From the NCBI GenBank assembly GCA_027622715.1, contig JAQBYN010000001.1:62001-126000 (forward strand): a stretch of DNA of 64,000 nucleotides, written 5' to 3'. Origin of the DNA: Pseudomonadota bacterium. Lineage in GTDB: Bacteria; Pseudomonadota; Alphaproteobacteria; SHVP01. The first letter of the stretch is position 1; every line of letters starts with the position of its first letter. Below the pieces are notes generated by a model. It was not told where the DNA came from. It did not search any database and worked only from the letters and a program-made list of their open reading frames with translations. Made by a program: the position numbers and the translations under genes. Positions 15,412 through 28,133 of this stretch are shown here, piece after piece.

Positions 15412-17781
15412 TTATTGGCGCGCGGGAAACGCCTGACGACGCACGTCGTCGTTTTCGAGAAAGGTCGGACGGCGCGCCATGCCGAGCTGTGCGTCTTGCG
15501 AATCACCGAATCGCAGCGCGACCGCTTGGGCCCGCCAACATGGACTGCGGGCGCCACGTCGAACGATCTCATCGATCCACCTGGGGACTGGCATCTCATC
15601 GCGCGTCAATGTGCGGCGGGAAAGTTCTATGGCAACAACCAGCGCCGTACAATCGCGCTGCAATGCCAGCGCGGCGATCGTCGGTCGGGCGGCCGCCAGT
15701 GGCCGCTCCAGCGCGACCAACGCACCCGCATAAATCCAGGCTTGCGCAACGGCGCCTTCACCGAGCATGGCGGTGATCTTCTCAATGATGTGGTCCGCCT
15801 CTGGCGAGCCCTGGTCTTTCACGACGCATCGCAAAACGCCGAACAGCCCGAGGCCGCGATGCTCGTTGTCGCCAACCGCGGCGACGACCGCCGCAAGGTC
15901 GCGCGAAAGAGCGCGGCGCACCGCACGATGCGCGTTTTTAGCCAGAAGGCCATCCCCAGTGAAAGGGAACGCGTTCGCCAGCGAGTCCGCGAGTTTCGCG
16001 TCGGCTGTGCCGCTCGCTTCAAACGGGACGCATGCCGGCGGCGTGGGGCCTTCGACATGCGGTGCTTTGGCTGCGAACGGCCCACCCTGCGGGATGACGG
16101 CGAAACTCTGGCGCTCTCCAGCGACAACGAATGCGTCGCGCCGGTCAACGCCCAGCATGGCCGCCACGCCGGGTAGGCCGCCCGACCAATGCCCGCCGCC
16201 CCAGCCACTGCTGTTCAATGAGAAGGAGTCGATGCCCCCATCATCGACCATGACACCGAGGCCATTGGCGGTACTTGCACCCTGCGCCAGCGAACCTGCC
16301 ACGTAGTGGTCATCGCCTGCACGGTCGCGTAGGAGGCCAATCGAACGATCCAGCCCCATCCCCTGCGAAACACCGACGCTGGCGAGGTAGGAATCGTCGC
16401 CCGCGCTGTCATCCAAAATACCAATGGCGACATGCGCGGCTTCGCCCTGAGCGTATCGAACTGCCGTATATCGGTCATCGCCGGCACGGTCTGCCAATAG
16501 ACCCATACCGAAGAAAAAACCGTGACCTTGGGCAAACATTTCGGCGTCGTAGGTGTCATCGCCACTGTGGTCGAGGAGCACACCAACGCCCCCGGCGACC
16601 CCTTCGCGGCTACCAAAACCAACGCCCTGCGCTTTACTGACGCGGCCGCCGCGGTCGAAGGCGTCATCTTGTCCGTCGGCGCGGTAACTGTCGTCTCCGG
16701 CGACATCGACCAGAACCGCGGCGCCAGCCGTACCGGCAAAGCCCTGTCCCAATCCGTTCAGGCGATAGCGGTCGTTGCCGGCAACGTCTATCAAGACTGA
16801 GCGACCCAGAACGGCGGCGGCCTGACCGAAATAGGTGCCGTCGTAGACATCGTCGCCCTGAAGATCGGCGACCGCGGCAATGCCACCGAAAGCCGATGAC
16901 GGACCCGCACCGGGCCCGCCCCACCGATCGTCGCCGGCCCGGTCGACCACGACCAGTACCGAAAGAACGCCCCCCCCGCCGGCATAGCTATCGTTTCCGG
17001 CGTGATCGACCACAATGACGACGCCGCCGGCGCCAAGCCCAGAAAAGTCGTACTCGTCATCCCCGCCCGGATCGATAATCACCATGACGCCCGATGCAAC
17101 GTCAGGACGGTAGCGATCGGGACCAAGCGTACCGATGATACGCGACACGCCCCTGGTCGTAGGGTCAGACACCGACGACTCTGCGGCGATTAGATCGACC
17201 AAGAGCGGGAGGACCAACCTGCCCAACCGCGCGGTCGAGGCATCCAGCTTGGCATCAAGGCCAGCAACAACGTCGTCGTGGAGGATTTCGCCGCCCCCCA
17301 ATATGCCGTTCAAATTGCTCCGATCTGTCTCAGCAAGGCCTTGAAACCATTCGACGGACTGACGCCATTGGCGGATCGCGTTGTCGGCACGCCGGGCAAA
17401 CTGGTTTACTACCCCAATCTCGGATCGCTGGATGGCGTGCTGCCGTCCTATCTGGATGGTCATGGGAACGGGCCACCCGATCCGACGAAGTGTATCCTCG
17501 AACTGCCCTCCCGGATCGTCGAGCAAGCGGGGAACGGCCTGGATTTGACGAAGGAATGCCGGTTCGGTCGCCCGCGCCGGCTCTTGGCCCGCTCGAAAGA
17601 CGGTATTGGGGATGACGAACATCGCGTCTCGGCCCAAGCCGCGTCCCACCAAACTTTCTTCCACTCGTTGAGCCACCGATTCGGCGGCTCGTGCGGACGT
17701 GACGCCAAACGAAAGAACCAGCGCCAGGGAAGCTGCGCCCATGATTCTTACGGCAGGATCAGACGTCATGCATGAAATCAT
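15412..17781 (-). CDS. Large exported protein with eleven D-x-x-G-D-D-x-Y repeats
   Basis: Function unknown. The 789-residue protein starts with a signal peptide (hydrophobic core about residues 12-28, cleavage near ARAAE at 32). Residues 33-225 form an alpha-helical, charged N domain. Residues 236-520 hold eleven repeats such as VDRAGDDRW, IDVAGNDRY, LDHSGDDTY and ADRAGDDRY, spaced about 20-45 residues, with QG and G-rich turns in between and a hydrophobic strand before each acidic motif. This resembles a calcium-binding beta-solenoid, akin in principle to RTX repeats though the motif differs. Residues about 590-789 form a second helical domain with a few Cys. The protein is probably periplasmic or surface exposed. 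A second in-frame ATG lies four codons downstream (17769). It is monocistronic; the terminator of livK lies upstream of it. Confidence 0.75.
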   Translation of the reverse strand: MISCMTSDPAVRIMGAASLALVLSFGVTSARAAESVAQRVEESLVGRGLGRDAMFVIPNTVFRAGQEPARATEPAFLRQIQAVPRLLDDPGGQFEDTLRRIGWPVPMTIQIGRQHAIQRSEIGVVNQFARRADNAIRQWRQSVEWFQGLAETDRSNLNGILGGGEILHDDVVAGLDAKLDASTARLGRLVLPLLVDLIAAESSVSDPTTRGVSRIIGTLGPDRYRPDVASGVMVIIDPGGDDEYDFSGLGAGGVVIVVDHAGNDSYAGGGGVLSVLVVVDRAGDDRWGGPGAGPSSAFGGIAAVADLQGDDVYDGTYFGQAAAVLGRSVLIDVAGNDRYRLNGLGQGFAGTAGAAVLVDVAGDDSYRADGQDDAFDRGGRVSKAQGVGFGSREGVAGGVGVLLDHSGDDTYDAEMFAQGHGFFFGMGLLADRAGDDRYTAVRYAQGEAAHVAIGILDDSAGDDSYLASVGVSQGMGLDRSIGLLRDRAGDDHYVAGSLAQGASTANGLGVMVDDGGIDSFSLNSSGWGGGHWSGGLPGVAAMLGVDRRDAFVVAGERQSFAVIPQGGPFAAKAPHVEGPTPPACVPFEASGTADAKLADSLANAFPFTGDGLLAKNAHRAVRRALSRDLAAVVAAVGDNEHRGLGLFGVLRCVVKDQGSPEADHIIEKITAMLGEGAVAQAWIYAGALVALERPLAAARPTIAALALQRDCTALVVAIELSRRTLTRDEMPVPRWIDEIVRRGARSPCWRAQAVALRFGDSQDAQLGMARRPTFLENDDVRRQAFPARQ
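16222..17076 (-). repeat. Region encoding eleven GDD-Y acidic repeats
   Basis: These codons encode residues 236-520. Repeat motifs start near residues 236, 259, 279, 305, 331, 358, 403, 430, 457, 485 and 512, each with the form hydrophobic-D-x-(A/G/S)-G-(D/N)-D-x-(Y/W/F). The last copy (VDDGGIDSF) is degenerate. Most spacings are 20-28 residues; one insertion of about 45 residues lies between copies 6 and 7. Confidence 0.85.
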
Positions 17782-22516: not shown

Positions 22517-23485
22517 TCAAACTGCTTGACGTTCCTCGGGTTTCTCGACTCGGCGAAGTGGTGTTGGCTTGCGCGAAAACCAGCGTGCGCGGTCCTGATC
22601 GAAGACGTCCGATAGATGATCGATGACTGCGCGGATACGAGCGCCCTTGTTGGTTTCTTCGTGCGACACGAGCCAAATCTCGGCTGAACAATTGGTGTCG
22701 ACCGGGAGCCGAACGAATTCGGAATCGAGTTCCTCGACATAGAGCGGGAAAAGACCGATCCCCATCCCCATGCGGACCGCCGAGACGACCGATGCCGAAG
22801 AGTTAGATCGGTAGACCACGGCGTTGTGCCGCTGAACAATATCGGTCCATGGCATCCAACCCGGGTTCATGTGGAGCGCGGTATGGTCAACCAAACGGTG
22901 ACGGTAGAGATCGTCGATCGACTCTGGAGTGCCGAATACGCGCACGTAAGATTTGGTCGCGAAGAGATGGAGATCCATCGCCCCAACTTTCTTCGCCACA
23001 AGTTTCGGTTCGGAAGGTCGCGCGTAGCGCACGGCAATATCAGCCTCGCGCATCGCCAGGTCGACCACCCGGTCCTTGCAGACGGTTTCGATCATGATGT
23101 GTGGGTGTTCGCGCTGGAATTCGACCAGTTTCGGCGGCAACCAAAGGGTCGCAAGGCCCTCGGTAATAGAGATACGGACCAGCCCCGTCATCTCGCTGTC
23201 GGCACCCGCCAGTTGGCGCTCGATGCCGGCCGCGGACGCTTCCATGTCGGCCGCCTGGCTGAAAATCAGTTTGCCTGCCGGCGTCAGTCGCATGCCGCGG
23301 CTGTGCCGGTCGAACAGCTTGGCGCCAAGGCGGTCCTCGAGCGCCGCTATTCTGCGGCCCACCGTAGACTGGTTGGTTTTTAGAAGCCGCCCCGCATCAG
23401 AAAAACTTCCGGTGCGCGCAACAGCCAGGAAATACTGGATGTCGCGCCAATCCCTTAGTTCTCCCTGTGATCTGCTTTTTTGCAT
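22517..23485 (-). CDS. LysR-family transcriptional regulator
   Basis: The 322-residue protein has the LysR N-terminal winged helix (about residues 13-72; DIQYFLAVARTGSFSDAGRLL, NQSTVGRRIAALED, LFDRHSRGMRLT) and an effector domain of the periplasmic-binding fold. It lies 163 bp upstream of livH in the same direction and diverges from the nucleotidyltransferase operon, so it could control either; LysR proteins most often control the divergent neighbour and themselves. A near-perfect inverted repeat directly upstream of its start (23489-23524) is a plausible binding site. The inducer is unknown. Confidence 0.92.
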   Translation of the reverse strand: MQKSRSQGELRDWRDIQYFLAVARTGSFSDAGRLLKTNQSTVGRRIAALEDRLGAKLFDRHSRGMRLTPAGKLIFSQAADMEASAAGIERQLAGADSEMTGLVRISITEGLATLWLPPKLVEFQREHPHIMIETVCKDRVVDLAMREADIAVRYARPSEPKLVAKKVGAMDLHLFATKSYVRVFGTPESIDDLYRHRLVDHTALHMNPGWMPWTDIVQRHNAVVYRSNSSASVVSAVRMGMGIGLFPLYVEELDSEFVRLPVDTNCSAEIWLVSHEETNKGARIRAVIDHLSDVFDQDRARWFSRKPTPLRRVEKPEERQAV

Positions 23486-23488
23486 GTG

Positions 23489-23524
23489 TTTTATGCGTAT
23501 TTTGTTAATTCGCAGCGCGTAAAA
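23489..23524. promoter_or_regulatory. Candidate LysR operator (inverted repeat)
   Basis: TTTTATGCG (23489-23497) and CGCGTAAAA (23516-23524) form an inverted repeat matching at eight of nine positions with an 18-bp AT-rich spacer. It lies in the 113-bp divergent gap between lysR and the nucleotidyltransferase gene, only three bases from the lysR start, as expected for an autoregulatory site. Confidence 0.4.
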
Positions 23525-23598
23525 CGACGGATACGGTAACGCACGTCTAAAGGGTAGGCGGTCGTTTAGTTCACGGCAACAGAATTGGCGGGGGATCT

Positions 23599-24858
23599 GT
23601 GCCAGACCGACAAAAATCCACGTTTCGTGCGTATTTGAGGAGCCCGTCGACGCGTCTCGCGGCGACGATCGGGACGCTGATGTACCTTTCCTACGCGGCC
23701 GGCTTCGACGCTTGGGGCAACCCAGCGCTCATCGGTGTGACTGCCCTCATAGGCATAGCACTCCCGGCCTACTCGCGGGTCAGCAATCGCATCGAACAAA
23801 GAGTGAATTATGCGCTGGTGCTGGTCACCGCCGGACGCCTCGCCAGATTTGCCGCTCAGTTCGCGTTTAACCTTGCAGCCTTCCTCATCATACAACTTGG
23901 GGGTGTGTTTGGCGACACCAGTTTATCTGGCTTGGGCGGCATCGTTGGCGCAGCGGCTCTGACGACCGCGGCGTCTCAAGGCGCGCAATACGTGGCCATC
24001 ATGCTGTTCAACCGAAACCTCGGCGATTTGAACCGGAACGTCATGCTCGCGCTGGCGGCCAACATCGTCGTGACGGCCGCTGCCGTGGTTGGCATTCCGG
24101 TCGTTCAGCCGGCATTCGTCGTCCTGGGCATTGGATTGGCCGCGTTTGTTTTCGGCAGCGGGATTCTTTCCGATCTGCGTGGCGTCTTGTTTCCGAAACG
24201 GGGTATCGGAATTTTTTTCGGGACGTTTAATCCCTTTCATATCACCCACCTTCGCCTCATTCGCGATGCGCTTGAACACCGCAACCTCGAGCGCGTCATC
24301 GTTCATCCCACACTAGTTCCCAAGGGCCACCGGCTCGCGCTGGAGCGTGGCGATATCGTCGTCGATCGGCTCGAAAACGGTTTGCAGATTTACGAACGGA
24401 CCGACCGCGCCGATCCGTATGTCGACTATTTCCCGACGGGACAGCGTTTCTTCGCACCCGAAACCCGACGCCACCTGATTGAGGGCGCGCTCGAAGAGGC
24501 CGGCCTCAGTAATCAGGTGGAAGTCGCCTTCATGCCCGAGGTCTATGACGCGCGGGGGTTTCACGGTGTGATCGCCGAAATCAAGAAAAACAATCCCGGC
24601 AAGCCGGTGCACGGCATTCATGGCAGCGATGTCGGTGGCATGATGGTCCGCGCAATCATGGACGAGTGCGGCTGGATTTATCCCATACCGATCCGCCGCC
24701 GAGACGGTATTTCCGCAACCGCCGTGCGCTCCGGCGCAACAGGCATGACACCCGAATCGATAAATGCCGCGTTGTCCCAACTAAAGAGTGATTCTTCGCA
24801 AGTCGTCATCAACGAAAGGAAGTTCCGTAATGACAAAGGCGTCCTCGTACCTGCCTAA
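23599..24858 (+). CDS. Membrane-anchored nucleotidyltransferase (NadD/cytidylyltransferase-like fusion)
   Basis: The 419-residue protein joins an N-terminal membrane domain (residues about 17-190, five to six hydrophobic segments) to a C-terminal nucleotidyltransferase. The catalytic part begins at IGIFFGTFNPFHITHLRLI (about 203-221), the HxGH motif of the superfamily seen here as HITH, and contains ISATAVRSG (about 371-379), equivalent to the ISSTxIR nucleotide-binding motif of NadD/NMNAT. Substrate is unknown: it could be nicotinate mononucleotide, a pantetheine-like phosphate or another phosphate acceptor. The membrane fusion is unusual for this superfamily. The start is GTG with GGGGGAT before it. 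The 3' end overlaps the GNAT gene by 29 bp, so it heads a coupled operon. Confidence 0.75.
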   Translation: MPDRQKSTFRAYLRSPSTRLAATIGTLMYLSYAAGFDAWGNPALIGVTALIGIALPAYSRVSNRIEQRVNYALVLVTAGRLARFAAQFAFNLAAFLIIQLGGVFGDTSLSGLGGIVGAAALTTAASQGAQYVAIMLFNRNLGDLNRNVMLALAANIVVTAAAVVGIPVVQPAFVVLGIGLAAFVFGSGILSDLRGVLFPKRGIGIFFGTFNPFHITHLRLIRDALEHRNLERVIVHPTLVPKGHRLALERGDIVVDRLENGLQIYERTDRADPYVDYFPTGQRFFAPETRRHLIEGALEEAGLSNQVEVAFMPEVYDARGFHGVIAEIKKNNPGKPVHGIHGSDVGGMMVRAIMDECGWIYPIPIRRRDGISATAVRSGATGMTPESINAALSQLKSDSSQVVINERKFRNDKGVLVPA

Positions 24859-25432
24859 CAGCAGGCGTAACGACATCTCGGTCAAAGTGGCCGGGTCGAT
24901 CGAAGAAATGATGCAAGCTTTTGCGATCCGTTCGGCTGTCTTCATGGCGGACCAAAATTGCCCCTATGCAGAGGAATTCGACGGGAACGATTTTTCCGCG
25001 ACGCACGTCGTGGCCTACGAGGGCGAGGAGCCAGTCGCCTGCATGCGCGTGCGATACTTCGGCGACTTTGCCAAGCTCGAGCGGTTCGCTGTCCGTAAGG
25101 AATACCGCCGCATGAGCATTATCAATGCGGTTGCCAACTACTCCATCAAGCTGTGCCGGCAGAAGGGCTACACCAAGCTTCACGCCCACGCGCAAAAGCG
25201 TCTGATCAAACTTTGGAGCCGCTTTGGTTTCGAGCCCAGCGGCGACCTGTTCCACTTCTCGGACCACGAATACGTCACTATCGTCGGCGATTTTGAGCGC
25301 CTCGACGACGCGATATCGATCGCGGCCGACCCAATGGTGCTCGTACGGCCCGAAGGAAAATGGGGAGAACCCGGCGTCCTCGATTTCTCCCGTGAGCGCT
25401 CTCCGACCAATCCGATTGGCGGTGCAGTATGA
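24830..25432 (+). CDS. GNAT-family acyltransferase
   Basis: The 200-residue protein has the GNAT core: a VACMRVRYFG strand, AKLERFAVRKEYRRMSI (acyl-CoA pyrophosphate loop region, about residues 84-100) and a C-terminal KLWSRFGFEPSGDLFHFSDHEYV. The acceptor is unknown. The layout (an early IRSAVFMADQNCPYAEEFDGND segment, then R-x-R-x-F) also resembles LuxI-like acyltransferases. The ORF track starts it at 24788, but GAAAGGAAG before the ATG at 24830 selects that start. It overlaps the nucleotidyltransferase gene by 29 bp and the isochorismatase-fold gene by four (ATGA), so the three proteins are made together. Confidence 0.8.
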   Translation: MTKASSYLPNSRRNDISVKVAGSIEEMMQAFAIRSAVFMADQNCPYAEEFDGNDFSATHVVAYEGEEPVACMRVRYFGDFAKLERFAVRKEYRRMSIINAVANYSIKLCRQKGYTKLHAHAQKRLIKLWSRFGFEPSGDLFHFSDHEYVTIVGDFERLDDAISIAADPMVLVRPEGKWGEPGVLDFSRERSPTNPIGGAV

Positions 25433-26052
25433 GGCCCTTTGATATGAACCAAAACTACGAAGTCTCCGACACGCCGTTACTCATCGCGATCGAGATCCAG
25501 CGGGAATACACGACCAAAGGCCGTCCCTATTACATGGAAGAAATCGATGAGAGCCTTGAGAACTGCAGCAAGATTCTGAGCCACGCGCGGGACAAGAATT
25601 GGACGGTCGCACATGTCCGCCACGAACAGCCCGGCAACCTCTTTGGCCAGGCCCATGCAGCGACCCAGTTTGTGAAAGGCTTCGAACCGCTGCCCCGCGA
25701 GTACCTTTTTACCAAGGGGAATTTCTCTTGCTACAGCAACCCCGGCTTCGAGAAGTTCATGGAAACCTCAAGGCCGGAGCAGGTCTATCTCATCGGCTAC
25801 AGCTCGCCGATGTCTTGCTTGTCGACGATCGTCGAGGGTTACCACCGAGGTCACGAGTTGACCTTTGTGACAGACGCGTCGCTTGCCCGTGCAACGCCTA
25901 ACGCGGAAGAAAAAACCGCCCATATGCATGCGACGCACATCATTTCTGGCTACGCCAATCTGGTCGAAACGTCCAAGGTCTTGGGCGATGTCTCACGCGG
26001 GTTTACCCCGTATCAAGACATGTCGGTCGCCGAGGCAAGGCACGCCGTGTAG
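25429..26052 (+). CDS. Isochorismatase-fold cysteine hydrolase with Glu in place of the catalytic Asp
   Basis: The 207-residue protein fits the isochorismatase/nicotinamidase superfamily in length and layout: a first strand PLLIAIEIQREY (residues 16-27), Lys96 in LFTKGNFSCY and the nucleophile Cys130 in GYSSPMSCLSTIVEGYHRGH, then the VTDA strand. The usual Asp-Lys-Cys triad has Asp at the end of strand 1 (as in LLVIDMQ); here Glu22 occupies that place. Lys and Cys are kept, so catalysis is likely but specificity may be altered. Substrates in the family include nicotinamide, N-carbamoylsarcosine and isochorismate. It is the last gene of the operon and is followed by a strong terminator. Confidence 0.78.
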   Translation: MRPFDMNQNYEVSDTPLLIAIEIQREYTTKGRPYYMEEIDESLENCSKILSHARDKNWTVAHVRHEQPGNLFGQAHAATQFVKGFEPLPREYLFTKGNFSCYSNPGFEKFMETSRPEQVYLIGYSSPMSCLSTIVEGYHRGHELTFVTDASLARATPNAEEKTAHMHATHIISGYANLVETSKVLGDVSRGFTPYQDMSVAEARHAV

Positions 26053-26073: not shown

Positions 26074-26105
26074 AAAACGGGCACCATAATGGTGCCCGTT
26101 TTCGT
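26074..26105 (+). terminator. Rho-independent terminator after the isochorismatase-fold gene
   Basis: AAAACGGGCACCA and TGGTGCCCGTTTT form a perfect 13-bp stem with a TAA loop and T-tract, 21 bp after the stop codon. It closes the three-gene operon and insulates the ECF sigma gene. Confidence 0.93.
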
Positions 26106-26231
26106 TATGCCGGGTCGCTTGCGGCGCTCAGTTGTTAAAACTATGGTCCGAACTAGGCGAGATGCCGCCCCGCTGCGCCTCCGGCTGAGCGTCGACACAA
26201 AGGCACCAATAGCACAGGCCGATTCGATCAC

Positions 26232-26789
26232 ATGGTGACAGACGATCCTATCGGCCCATTCCTCGAAGCTGCGGCTAAGGGAGATTACGGTGCCTTCGCC
26301 GAGATTTATCGGCTGACCTCATCGAAACTTTTTGCGCTCTCGATGAGTATTCTCAGACGTAACGACTGGGCCGAGGAAGCCCTCCAGGAGACCTACACGC
26401 GGATTTGGCGATCAGCACACCGCTATGATTCGGAAAAGGGCGCCGGGATGGGCTGGATCGTGACGATCGCTCGAAATGCCGCCCTGTCGAAGTTGATGCG
26501 CCGGCCGAAAGACGAGTTTGCAGGCAATGAAAGCGACATGCTCCAGCTTCCCAGTGGGGACCCGACGCCGATGGAGGCGGCGATGCGGTCAAGTGACGCG
26601 CGGCAGCTCATGACCTGTCTGAGCGAGCTCGACGAGGAGCAGAAGCAGTCCATTTTATTGATTTATTATCAAGGACTTACCCAGCGCGAGGTCGCCGACC
26701 ATCTGCGCCGCCCGGTCGGCACCGTCAAAAGTTGGGTGCGCCGCGGCCTGCTGCGCCTTAGGGACTGTTTGGACCGTGAAACAGCTTAG
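26232..26789 (+). CDS. ECF-type RNA polymerase sigma factor
   Basis: The 185-residue protein has sigma region 2 (about residues 20-90; LSMSILRRNDWAEEALQETYTRIW, ending in GWIVTIARNAAL) and region 4 (about 120-180; LIYYQGLTQREVADHLRRPVGTVKSWVRRGL, a helix-turn-helix). No region 3 is present, as usual for ECF sigmas. Its 3' end overlaps the GTG start of a membrane anti-sigma factor by 14 bp, the standard pairing. It resembles the SigK/EcfG-unrelated ECF group with RskA-like anti-sigmas. I could not identify its own promoter in the 179-bp gap upstream. Confidence 0.93.
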   Translation: MVTDDPIGPFLEAAAKGDYGAFAEIYRLTSSKLFALSMSILRRNDWAEEALQETYTRIWRSAHRYDSEKGAGMGWIVTIARNAALSKLMRRPKDEFAGNESDMLQLPSGDPTPMEAAMRSSDARQLMTCLSELDEEQKQSILLIYYQGLTQREVADHLRRPVGTVKSWVRRGLLRLRDCLDRETA

Positions 26790-27477
26790 CGCCACAGATC
26801 GCAGCCAGCTTGCGGGGGAATACGTCCTAGGGACCCTCCGCGGCCCGGCACGGGTGCGATTCGAGCGCCTTGTCGAGGACGACCCGCACCTATGGCAAGA
26901 GGTTGCCTTTTGGGAGCGCCGGCTCGGCCCGCTAGGCGAGGCGCTTCCCGAACAGGCGCCACCCAGCCGCGTTTGGGCAGCGATCGAGGCGCAGATTGGC
27001 CCCCAAAGAGCGCCCGCACGTCAGCCCACCGGGTTTTGGCAAAGCATGCAATTCTGGCGCGGATTCAGTCTCGTCGCCACTGGCCTCGCGGCGGCGCTGC
27101 TGGTTCTTGTCCTGCTACCGCCGGCCGACACCGATTTTAGGCCGATTCAGGTCGCGACGCTCCAGAACGAGGCCGACGGCACGGCATGGATTGTCCGGGT
27201 AGCGGCCGACGGCACCGCAGAAATCGCCGCGATCGATGCGCCCACGGCGCCGCCGGGTCGCGACTACGAGCTATGGCTCTTGCGAGGCACCGATCAGGCG
27301 CCCGTCTCATTGGGTCTCGCGTCGAACGCGCAAACCCAGCGGATTGCCCTGCCCGCGACGTTTGCTGACGGAACGGGGTTCGCCATTAGCGTCGAACCGG
27401 CGGGCGGCTCGCGCACCGGCGCGCCGACCGGCCCGGTTCTTTTCGTGGGCGGCCTCGTCGGCACACGGACCAACTAA
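26776..27477 (+). CDS. RskA-like membrane anti-sigma factor
   Basis: The 233-residue protein has a cytoplasmic N-terminal helical region (residues 1-90, LAGEYVLGTLRGPARVRFERLVEDDP, typical of RskA-type anti-sigma factors), one transmembrane segment (about 95-115, LVATGLAAALLVLVLL) and a periplasmic RskA C domain containing PPGRDYELWLLRG and GFAISVEPAGG. It would hold the preceding ECF sigma factor at the membrane until a periplasmic signal releases it. The start is GTG, overlapping the sigma gene by 14 bp. Confidence 0.9.
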   Translation: MKQLSATDRSQLAGEYVLGTLRGPARVRFERLVEDDPHLWQEVAFWERRLGPLGEALPEQAPPSRVWAAIEAQIGPQRAPARQPTGFWQSMQFWRGFSLVATGLAAALLVLVLLPPADTDFRPIQVATLQNEADGTAWIVRVAADGTAEIAAIDAPTAPPGRDYELWLLRGTDQAPVSLGLASNAQTQRIALPATFADGTGFAISVEPAGGSRTGAPTGPVLFVGGLVGTRTN

Positions 27478-27539
27478 CGCATCCACTCTGCCCGAGTACG
27501 GGTATTCCAAGTAACGCTTCAGAATCGGAGGGCCAGACC

Positions 27540-28133
27540 GTGCCACACGAGAATTCGAGTTCGTTGATTGTCGCCCCATCGCCCAACCTTGTTTCGCGGC
27601 GTGGCTTCTTCTCGACCACGGGGACACTAACCCTGTCGGCAACCGCTGTGGCGCTGCTCGCGGGTTGCGGCACAATGGCGGCCAAGAGTAACGATGCGGC
27701 GGTGAGCGACTTCGACATCCTTAATGGCGCCGTGGGTGCCGAGCAGGAGGCGATTGCCGCCTATCAGCTTGGGGCGGACAGCGGCCTATTGGAGCCGGCA
27801 GTCGCCCAAGTCGCGCTCGCGTTTCAACGCGATCACAGCGAACACCTAAAAATCTTGTCGGACACGATTCGACAACTGGGCGGGACACCAGCGCCGGCCA
27901 AATCGGACTACAATTTTCCAGTTGCCGACCTCAAGTCGCAGGCCGACGTGTTGGCATTTGCCGCCGACCTCGAACAGGGCGCGGTCAGTGCCTACGTCCA
28001 GGCCGTGTCAGACTTTCAGAATGGCGACCTCAGGACCGCGGCGGCCAGCATTCTCGGCGCCGAAGCCATGCATTGGGCGGTTCTGCGCAGCGCATTGGGC
28101 GAGAACCCAGTGCCATCAGCGTTCGTTAGCTAA
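27540..28133 (+). CDS. Ferritin-like domain Tat lipoprotein
   Basis: The 197-residue protein has a twin-arginine motif (SRRGFFSTTG, residues 20-29) followed by a hydrophobic stretch and a lipobox LLAGC (Cys about 42), so it is a predicted Tat-exported lipoprotein. The mature part is a four-helix ferritin-like bundle: EQEAIAAYQLGADSG, FQRDHSEHLKILSDTIRQLGG, AADLEQGAVSAYVQAVSDF and ILGAEAMHWAVLRSALG, which supply Glu and His in the expected E...ExxH-like pattern of Ferritin_2/DUF4439 proteins. It lies 62 bp after the anti-sigma gene and is likely co-transcribed with the ECF pair, so it may be a target. Start is GTG. Metal and substrate are unknown. Confidence 0.8.
   Translation: MPHENSSSLIVAPSPNLVSRRGFFSTTGTLTLSATAVALLAGCGTMAAKSNDAAVSDFDILNGAVGAEQEAIAAYQLGADSGLLEPAVAQVALAFQRDHSEHLKILSDTIRQLGGTPAPAKSDYNFPVADLKSQADVLAFAADLEQGAVSAYVQAVSDFQNGDLRTAAASILGAEAMHWAVLRSALGENPVPSAFVS

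Follow-up and report, generated by a model that had tools for sequence, protein, structure and literature searches.

A LysR-associated operon pairing a membrane-fused NadD-like nucleotidyltransferase with a GNAT acyltransferase in Alphaproteobacteria

Enzymes with the NadD fold are usually regarded as soluble and housekeeping. NMN-adenylyltransferase-like enzymes are also found in phosphonate natural-product pathways, where FrbH and PhpF activate a small phosphonate and stand beside tailoring enzymes. Cysteine hydrolases related to the isochorismatase-fold protein considered here use an Asp-Lys-Cys triad (PMC7948467), and the lpiA-acvB genes of Agrobacterium form a lysyl-PG operon (PMC13197417). 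The locus described below lies in a stretch of 64,000 nucleotides (the window, meaning the whole stretch of DNA that was analysed) and brings together a NadD-like domain fused to a membrane domain (NTmem), a GNAT acyltransferase, an isochorismatase-fold hydrolase (ISO), and a LysR regulator, with the following features:

22517-23485, minus strand: LysR gene (GcvA-like; PF00126 and PF03466), divergent, conserved partner of the operon
23486-23598, no strand: promoter region between the divergent genes; weak inverted repeat at 23488-23497 and 23516-23525
23599-24858, plus strand: NTmem gene, 419 aa, GTG start
23599-24192, plus strand: membrane domain at the N terminus of NTmem, predicted to have six helices
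24193-24858, plus strand: NadD-like nucleotidyltransferase domain at the C terminus of NTmem (GTFNPFHITHL ... HGSD ... ISATAVR)
24830-25432, plus strand: GNAT acyltransferase gene, 200 aa (PF00583, E 3.5e-11), with the C-terminal tail DPMxLxRPEGxWxxPGxL
25429-26052, plus strand: ISO gene, 207 aa, an optional isochorismatase-fold cysteine hydrolase (PF00857, E 4.3e-23)
26074-26106, plus strand: intrinsic-terminator-like hairpin, from folding and a shuffle test

The preliminary description was right about the layout, in which three genes overlap (NTmem and GNAT by 29 bp, GNAT and ISO by 4 bp in an ATGA) and the LysR gene faces them across a gap of 113 bp. The terminator-like hairpin that it reported is also present, as a perfect 14-bp inverted repeat at 26074-26102 that folds into 13 pairs around a 3-nt loop (folding energy −21.2 kcal/mol), and 0 of 500 shuffles gave a stem as long, the longest being 11 bp. 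L022 (a congener) and L006 each have a hairpin followed by a T-run at the equivalent site, that of L006 with a different stem sequence. The inverted repeat claimed for the LysR gap exists but is weak (10 nt, 90%) and of marginal significance, being equalled in 6.8% of shuffles; it is largely retained in L022 and not retained in L006. The products match Pfam families above the cut-offs: CTP_transf_like for NTmem, Acetyltransf_1 for GNAT, and Isochorismatase for ISO. All four genes evolve under purifying selection, with dN/dS against the congener G001 of 0.07 (NTmem), 0.03 (GNAT), 0.05 (ISO), and 0.02 (LysR), in a pair whose dS is close to saturation. Downstream, at 26232-28133, lie ECF sigma factor, anti-sigma, and ferritin-like genes (named by eye), which also adjoin the operon in L022 and in the same-family L006. 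Elsewhere in the window (15412-17742), a 776-aa protein with many GDDxY-like repeats is encoded next to a branched-chain amino-acid ABC transporter and is kept in the congener.

The C-terminal domain of NTmem carries the motifs GTFNPFHITHL and ISATAVRSG noted earlier. Among 14 homologues H214 and H217 of HxxH are invariant, with T or S in place of the usual G, and S372, T374, and R377 of SxTxxR are nearly invariant. PF01467 (CTP_transf_like) is matched in 14/14 members, in NTmem of the window at 25.2 bits against a gathering cut-off of 21. The earlier call of a membrane-fused NadD-like transferase is borne out, NadD ranking first in both profile and fold searches: the best match in a PDB profile search is Enterococcus faecium NadD (E 1.5e-4), and Foldseek with the AlphaFold model gives Mycobacterium tuberculosis NadD at the top (probability 1.0, E 0.016). 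The model was built from a six-row alignment (mean pLDDT 76). Active-site detail is tentative because the Foldseek E values are 0.016 or worse and residues 342-380, from HGSD to SATAVR, are poorly modelled (pLDDT below 50). Against the NadD model TIGR00482, NTmem scores 25.5 bits, far below the cut-off of 112.45, and only residues 205-241 align; the segment following HxxH is family-specific (HPTxVPKxH...YFPTG). A housekeeping role as NadD or CoaD was considered and rejected, since the genome encodes a NadD beside proA and an intact CoaD elsewhere (both named by motif and neighbours), so that NTmem is not the enzyme of housekeeping NAD or CoA synthesis.

GNAT scores 43.8 bits against PF00583 (cut-off 20.7) and a fold search places it in the YjcF/SACOL1063/ElaA fold. 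The canonical CoA-binding loop, R/Q-x-x-G-x-G/A, occurs in L007, L008, L027, and L035, and is replaced by RRMSII in the window and its nearest relatives; because this pyrophosphate loop is degenerate, use of acyl-CoA by the GNAT of the window is uncertain.

ISO scores 82.7 bits against PF00857 (cut-off 27) and retains Cys130 and Lys96 of the Asp-Lys-Cys triad in all seven aligned proteins. The triad Asp is present in L006, L007, L008, and L010, and is Glu in the window and in G001 and Gly in G101, so that the window ISO has the Lys and Cys of the triad and lacks its Asp. Curated models score far under their cut-offs (biuret hydrolase 22.8 against 370; RutB 13.2 against 378), no nicotinamidase model stands among the matches listed, and the nearest solved structures (4h17, 3oqp, and 3hu5) bear only generic isochorismatase-family names from their depositors. 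The retained Lys and Cys favor amide hydrolysis over true isochorismatase activity, although the triad Asp is not conserved. The nicotinoyl or ureido substrate given as an example in the preliminary description is thus not supported, in view of these scores, the substituted Asp, and the separate canonical NadD.

A scan of genome contigs returned five relatives, all from metagenome-assembled genomes (MAGs): L007, L008, and L009 belong to other alphaproteobacterial lineages, L006 is a sister, and L010 is from Campylobacterota, which rules out an adjacency restricted to the genome of the window. Fourteen alphaproteobacterial loci were seen whole (the window, L006-L009, L022-L027, L035, L036, and L052). 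A LysR gene adjoins NTmem in all 14 and is divergent in 13, the exception being L009, and GNAT lies immediately 3′ of NTmem in 13 of the 14, the remaining locus (L052) holding an internally deleted remnant. In G712, GNAT is upstream of NTmem in the same orientation. ISO is present in 8/16 loci (the window, L006, L007, L008, L010, L022, L027, and L052), which rules it out as an obligate member; a second GNAT occupies its position in the genus to which G074, G286, and G363 belong, and in the genome of L009 the sole isochorismatase-fold match is distant (E 7e-9) and located elsewhere. Pairwise divergence of NTmem is correlated with that of GNAT (rank r 0.44, p 0.0015), and the correlation with ISO, from seven loci, is not significant (p 0.18). 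The conserved unit is therefore LysR, NTmem, and GNAT, with ISO optional. The preliminary view of an undescribed operon with synteny kept in distant taxa holds for this unit, seen in several alphaproteobacterial families (13 loci), and fails for ISO as a fixed part; an indivisible system of three enzymes is unsupported because ISO is absent or replaced in half of the loci while the other three genes persist. A literature search on the gene combination returned nothing relevant. Pairs of GNAT and LysR genes without NTmem occur on plasmids of Aureimonas, Agrobacterium, Rhizobium, and Sinorhizobium (L039-L042), with XRE-type regulator genes nearby in L039, L041, and L042.

Outside the class, the gene order in G712 is HalD-family Fe/2OG enzyme, GNAT, NTmem, FAD oxidoreductase, EamA-like transporter, and PNPOx, and in L010 it is PLP Cys/Met-type enzyme, NTmem fragment, and ISO, followed beyond an IS by an Fe/2OG-like gene and an EamA-like transporter (the L010 Fe/2OG gene and every EamA assignment being made by eye, without a model). 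Both contexts look like small-molecule tailoring clusters and therefore favor nucleotidyl activation and acylation of an amine-bearing substrate. The explanation that we place first, while holding it tentatively, is a LysR-controlled, patchily spread operon for small-molecule modification, in which NTmem would nucleotidylate and GNAT would acylate an amine-bearing substrate at the membrane. We infer the reaction, the order of its steps, the cytosolic orientation, and the regulation as follows. NTmem would sit in the inner membrane with both termini cytosolic, and its NadD-like domain would move AMP or CMP from an NTP to a phosphate, or less likely a carboxylate, of a small and probably amine-bearing substrate held at or close to the membrane domain. 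GNAT would acylate the same compound or a precursor of it; ISO, where encoded, may be a cysteine hydrolase of the amidase type, trimming or recycling an amide on this compound, a role in which a second GNAT could substitute, and LysR would detect a compound of the pathway and switch the operon on. This tentative reading draws on the conserved LysR-NTmem-GNAT order, the near-invariant motifs, the NadD-like fold, purifying selection, correlated divergence, the separate NadD and CoaD, and the tailoring-type neighbours; the degenerate GNAT loop, the stretch with pLDDT below 50, the non-conserved ISO Asp, and the decay of several copies (see below) weigh against it.

The membrane domain bears on an alternative substrate. 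Its helices are predicted by AlphaFold at residues 16-36, 42-73, 76-100, 114-138, 144-164, and 169-197, and the loop charges obey the positive-inside rule, which predicts cytosolic N and C termini. No convincing Pfam match was found across 14 members and no PDB sequence match up to E 10, and the fold is unplaced because a Foldseek search with the entire NTmem model gave matches of note to the nucleotidyltransferase domain only; when the search for remote copies of this domain was relaxed, just two marginal matches were added (E about 0.002). Polar residues are kept within it (R80, R83, Q87, N91, T122-T123, S126, Q130, R139, N147, and S191-D192-x-R194). A stand-alone copy of 204 aa with no nucleotidyltransferase domain is encoded in G360 (L028:9092-9706), beginning 6 bp 3′ of a gene pair for lysyl-PG synthase (lpiA/mprF-like) and lysyl-PG hydrolase (acvB/virJ-like), and it is possible that this copy is a third member of a lysyl-PG operon. 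That the helix polar residues are conserved in the G360 copy as well suggests, from this one genome, a domain that does more than anchor the protein and that may be functional and perhaps lipid-facing. NTmem might accordingly belong to a lipid head-group pathway, in which the membrane domain serves to bind or present a lipid, NTmem makes a CMP- or AMP-activated precursor, and GNAT acylates or transfers it to give a modified phospholipid. The G360 arrangement, the conserved polar residues, and the lysyl-PG operon of Agrobacterium (PMC13197417) speak for this alternative, but the stand-alone domain was seen only once, no lipid synthase or CDP-alcohol phosphatidyltransferase was noticed among the called genes beside NTmem loci (partially annotated), and the nucleotidyltransferase domain is closer to NadD than to cytidylyltransferases, all of which leaves it unlikely.

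The distribution of the operon was followed by whole-genome profile searches in draws that each contain their centre genome. NTmem occurs in 8/385 sampled genomes of the class, about 1 in 50, one of the eight having the membrane domain only; in 3/399 genomes of a phylum-wide draw, two of them already in the class set and the third (G712) from another class; and, among 200 Campylobacterota genomes, in that of L010 alone, all of these rates being upper-end values because the centre genome is counted. No match was found in 72,556 plasmids (E 1e-8) or in the viral contigs searched, and the low, patchy counts and the absence from plasmids therefore mark NTmem as a rare accessory gene. G1144 carries two copies, one of which (L036) adjoins IS66- and IS21-type genes and integrases (by eye). 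The module is decaying independently in several copies, with in-frame TAA codons in NTmem of L008 (L008:6200) and L014 (G002, codon 66), and an internal deletion of GNAT in L052 (4200-4400; G1156). In L010, NTmem stops at 300 aa and shares an ATGA overlap with ISO (L010:8010-9451); its C-terminal third and GNAT are gone, as though deleted in between. Sporadic spread is one of several points in keeping with a role in detoxification or self-resistance, in which LysR would sense a toxic compound and the enzymes would act on it by nucleotidylation (NTmem), acylation (GNAT), and hydrolysis (ISO). The others are LysR control, the mobile neighbours of L036, three chemistries each of which could inactivate a compound, and the GNAT and LysR pairs alone on rhizobial plasmids; yet no efflux pump or resistance family is conserved next to NTmem loci, PADLOC gave no match, and we know of no resistance nucleotidyltransferase with a NadD fold, so that we judge this role to have only a modest chance of being correct.

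A reading akin to that of the preliminary description, in which the operon serves NAD-related salvage or makes a NAD-like dinucleotide at the membrane, takes up the NadD-like fold and the isochorismatase-fold partner, but no observation links the operon to NAD, the genome has its canonical NadD, ISO has nearer relatives among uncharacterised cysteine hydrolases than in nicotinamidase and is missing from half of the loci, and the family-specific segment after HxxH stands at the position of the substrate loop of NadD, which makes it quite improbable.

Small-molecule modification thus stays the leading reading, and a bolder, somewhat doubtful reading is that NTmem founds an undescribed class of membrane-embedded nucleotidyltransferases, whose polar-lined domain would present a lipid or membrane-soluble substrate and which with a dedicated GNAT would yield a product both nucleotide-activated and acylated, whether a signal, a lipid head group, or a natural product. 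If true, an accessory NadD-fold enzyme that is conserved and regulated, has a new membrane domain, and stands nearly always next to an acyltransferase would indicate an unrecognised membrane-associated pathway. The system is tractable, with four genes, clear catalytic residues, and the stand-alone relative in G360 as a second handle.

Compared with known systems, NTmem shares with NadD the Rossmann-like fold, GTFxPxHxxH, S-x-T-x-x-R, and the position of the G(S/A)D motif, and differs from it in the membrane-domain fusion, T/S for G in HxGH, and its own YFPTG insert. ISO resembles N-carbamoylsarcosine amidase and the biuret and triuret hydrolases in fold and in its catalytic Cys and Lys, but the triad Asp is Glu or Gly in some members and every named-enzyme cut-off lies above its scores. 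The operon GNAT is like YjcF, SACOL1063, and ElaA in fold and N-terminal motif, and unlike them in its added conserved C-terminal tail, the degenerate CoA loop of the window clade, and its operon context. No PEP mutase was noticed among the loci read, and FrbH and PhpF, unlike NTmem, are not membrane proteins; any likeness to them would lie in the recruitment of an NMN-adenylyltransferase-like enzyme beside tailoring enzymes.
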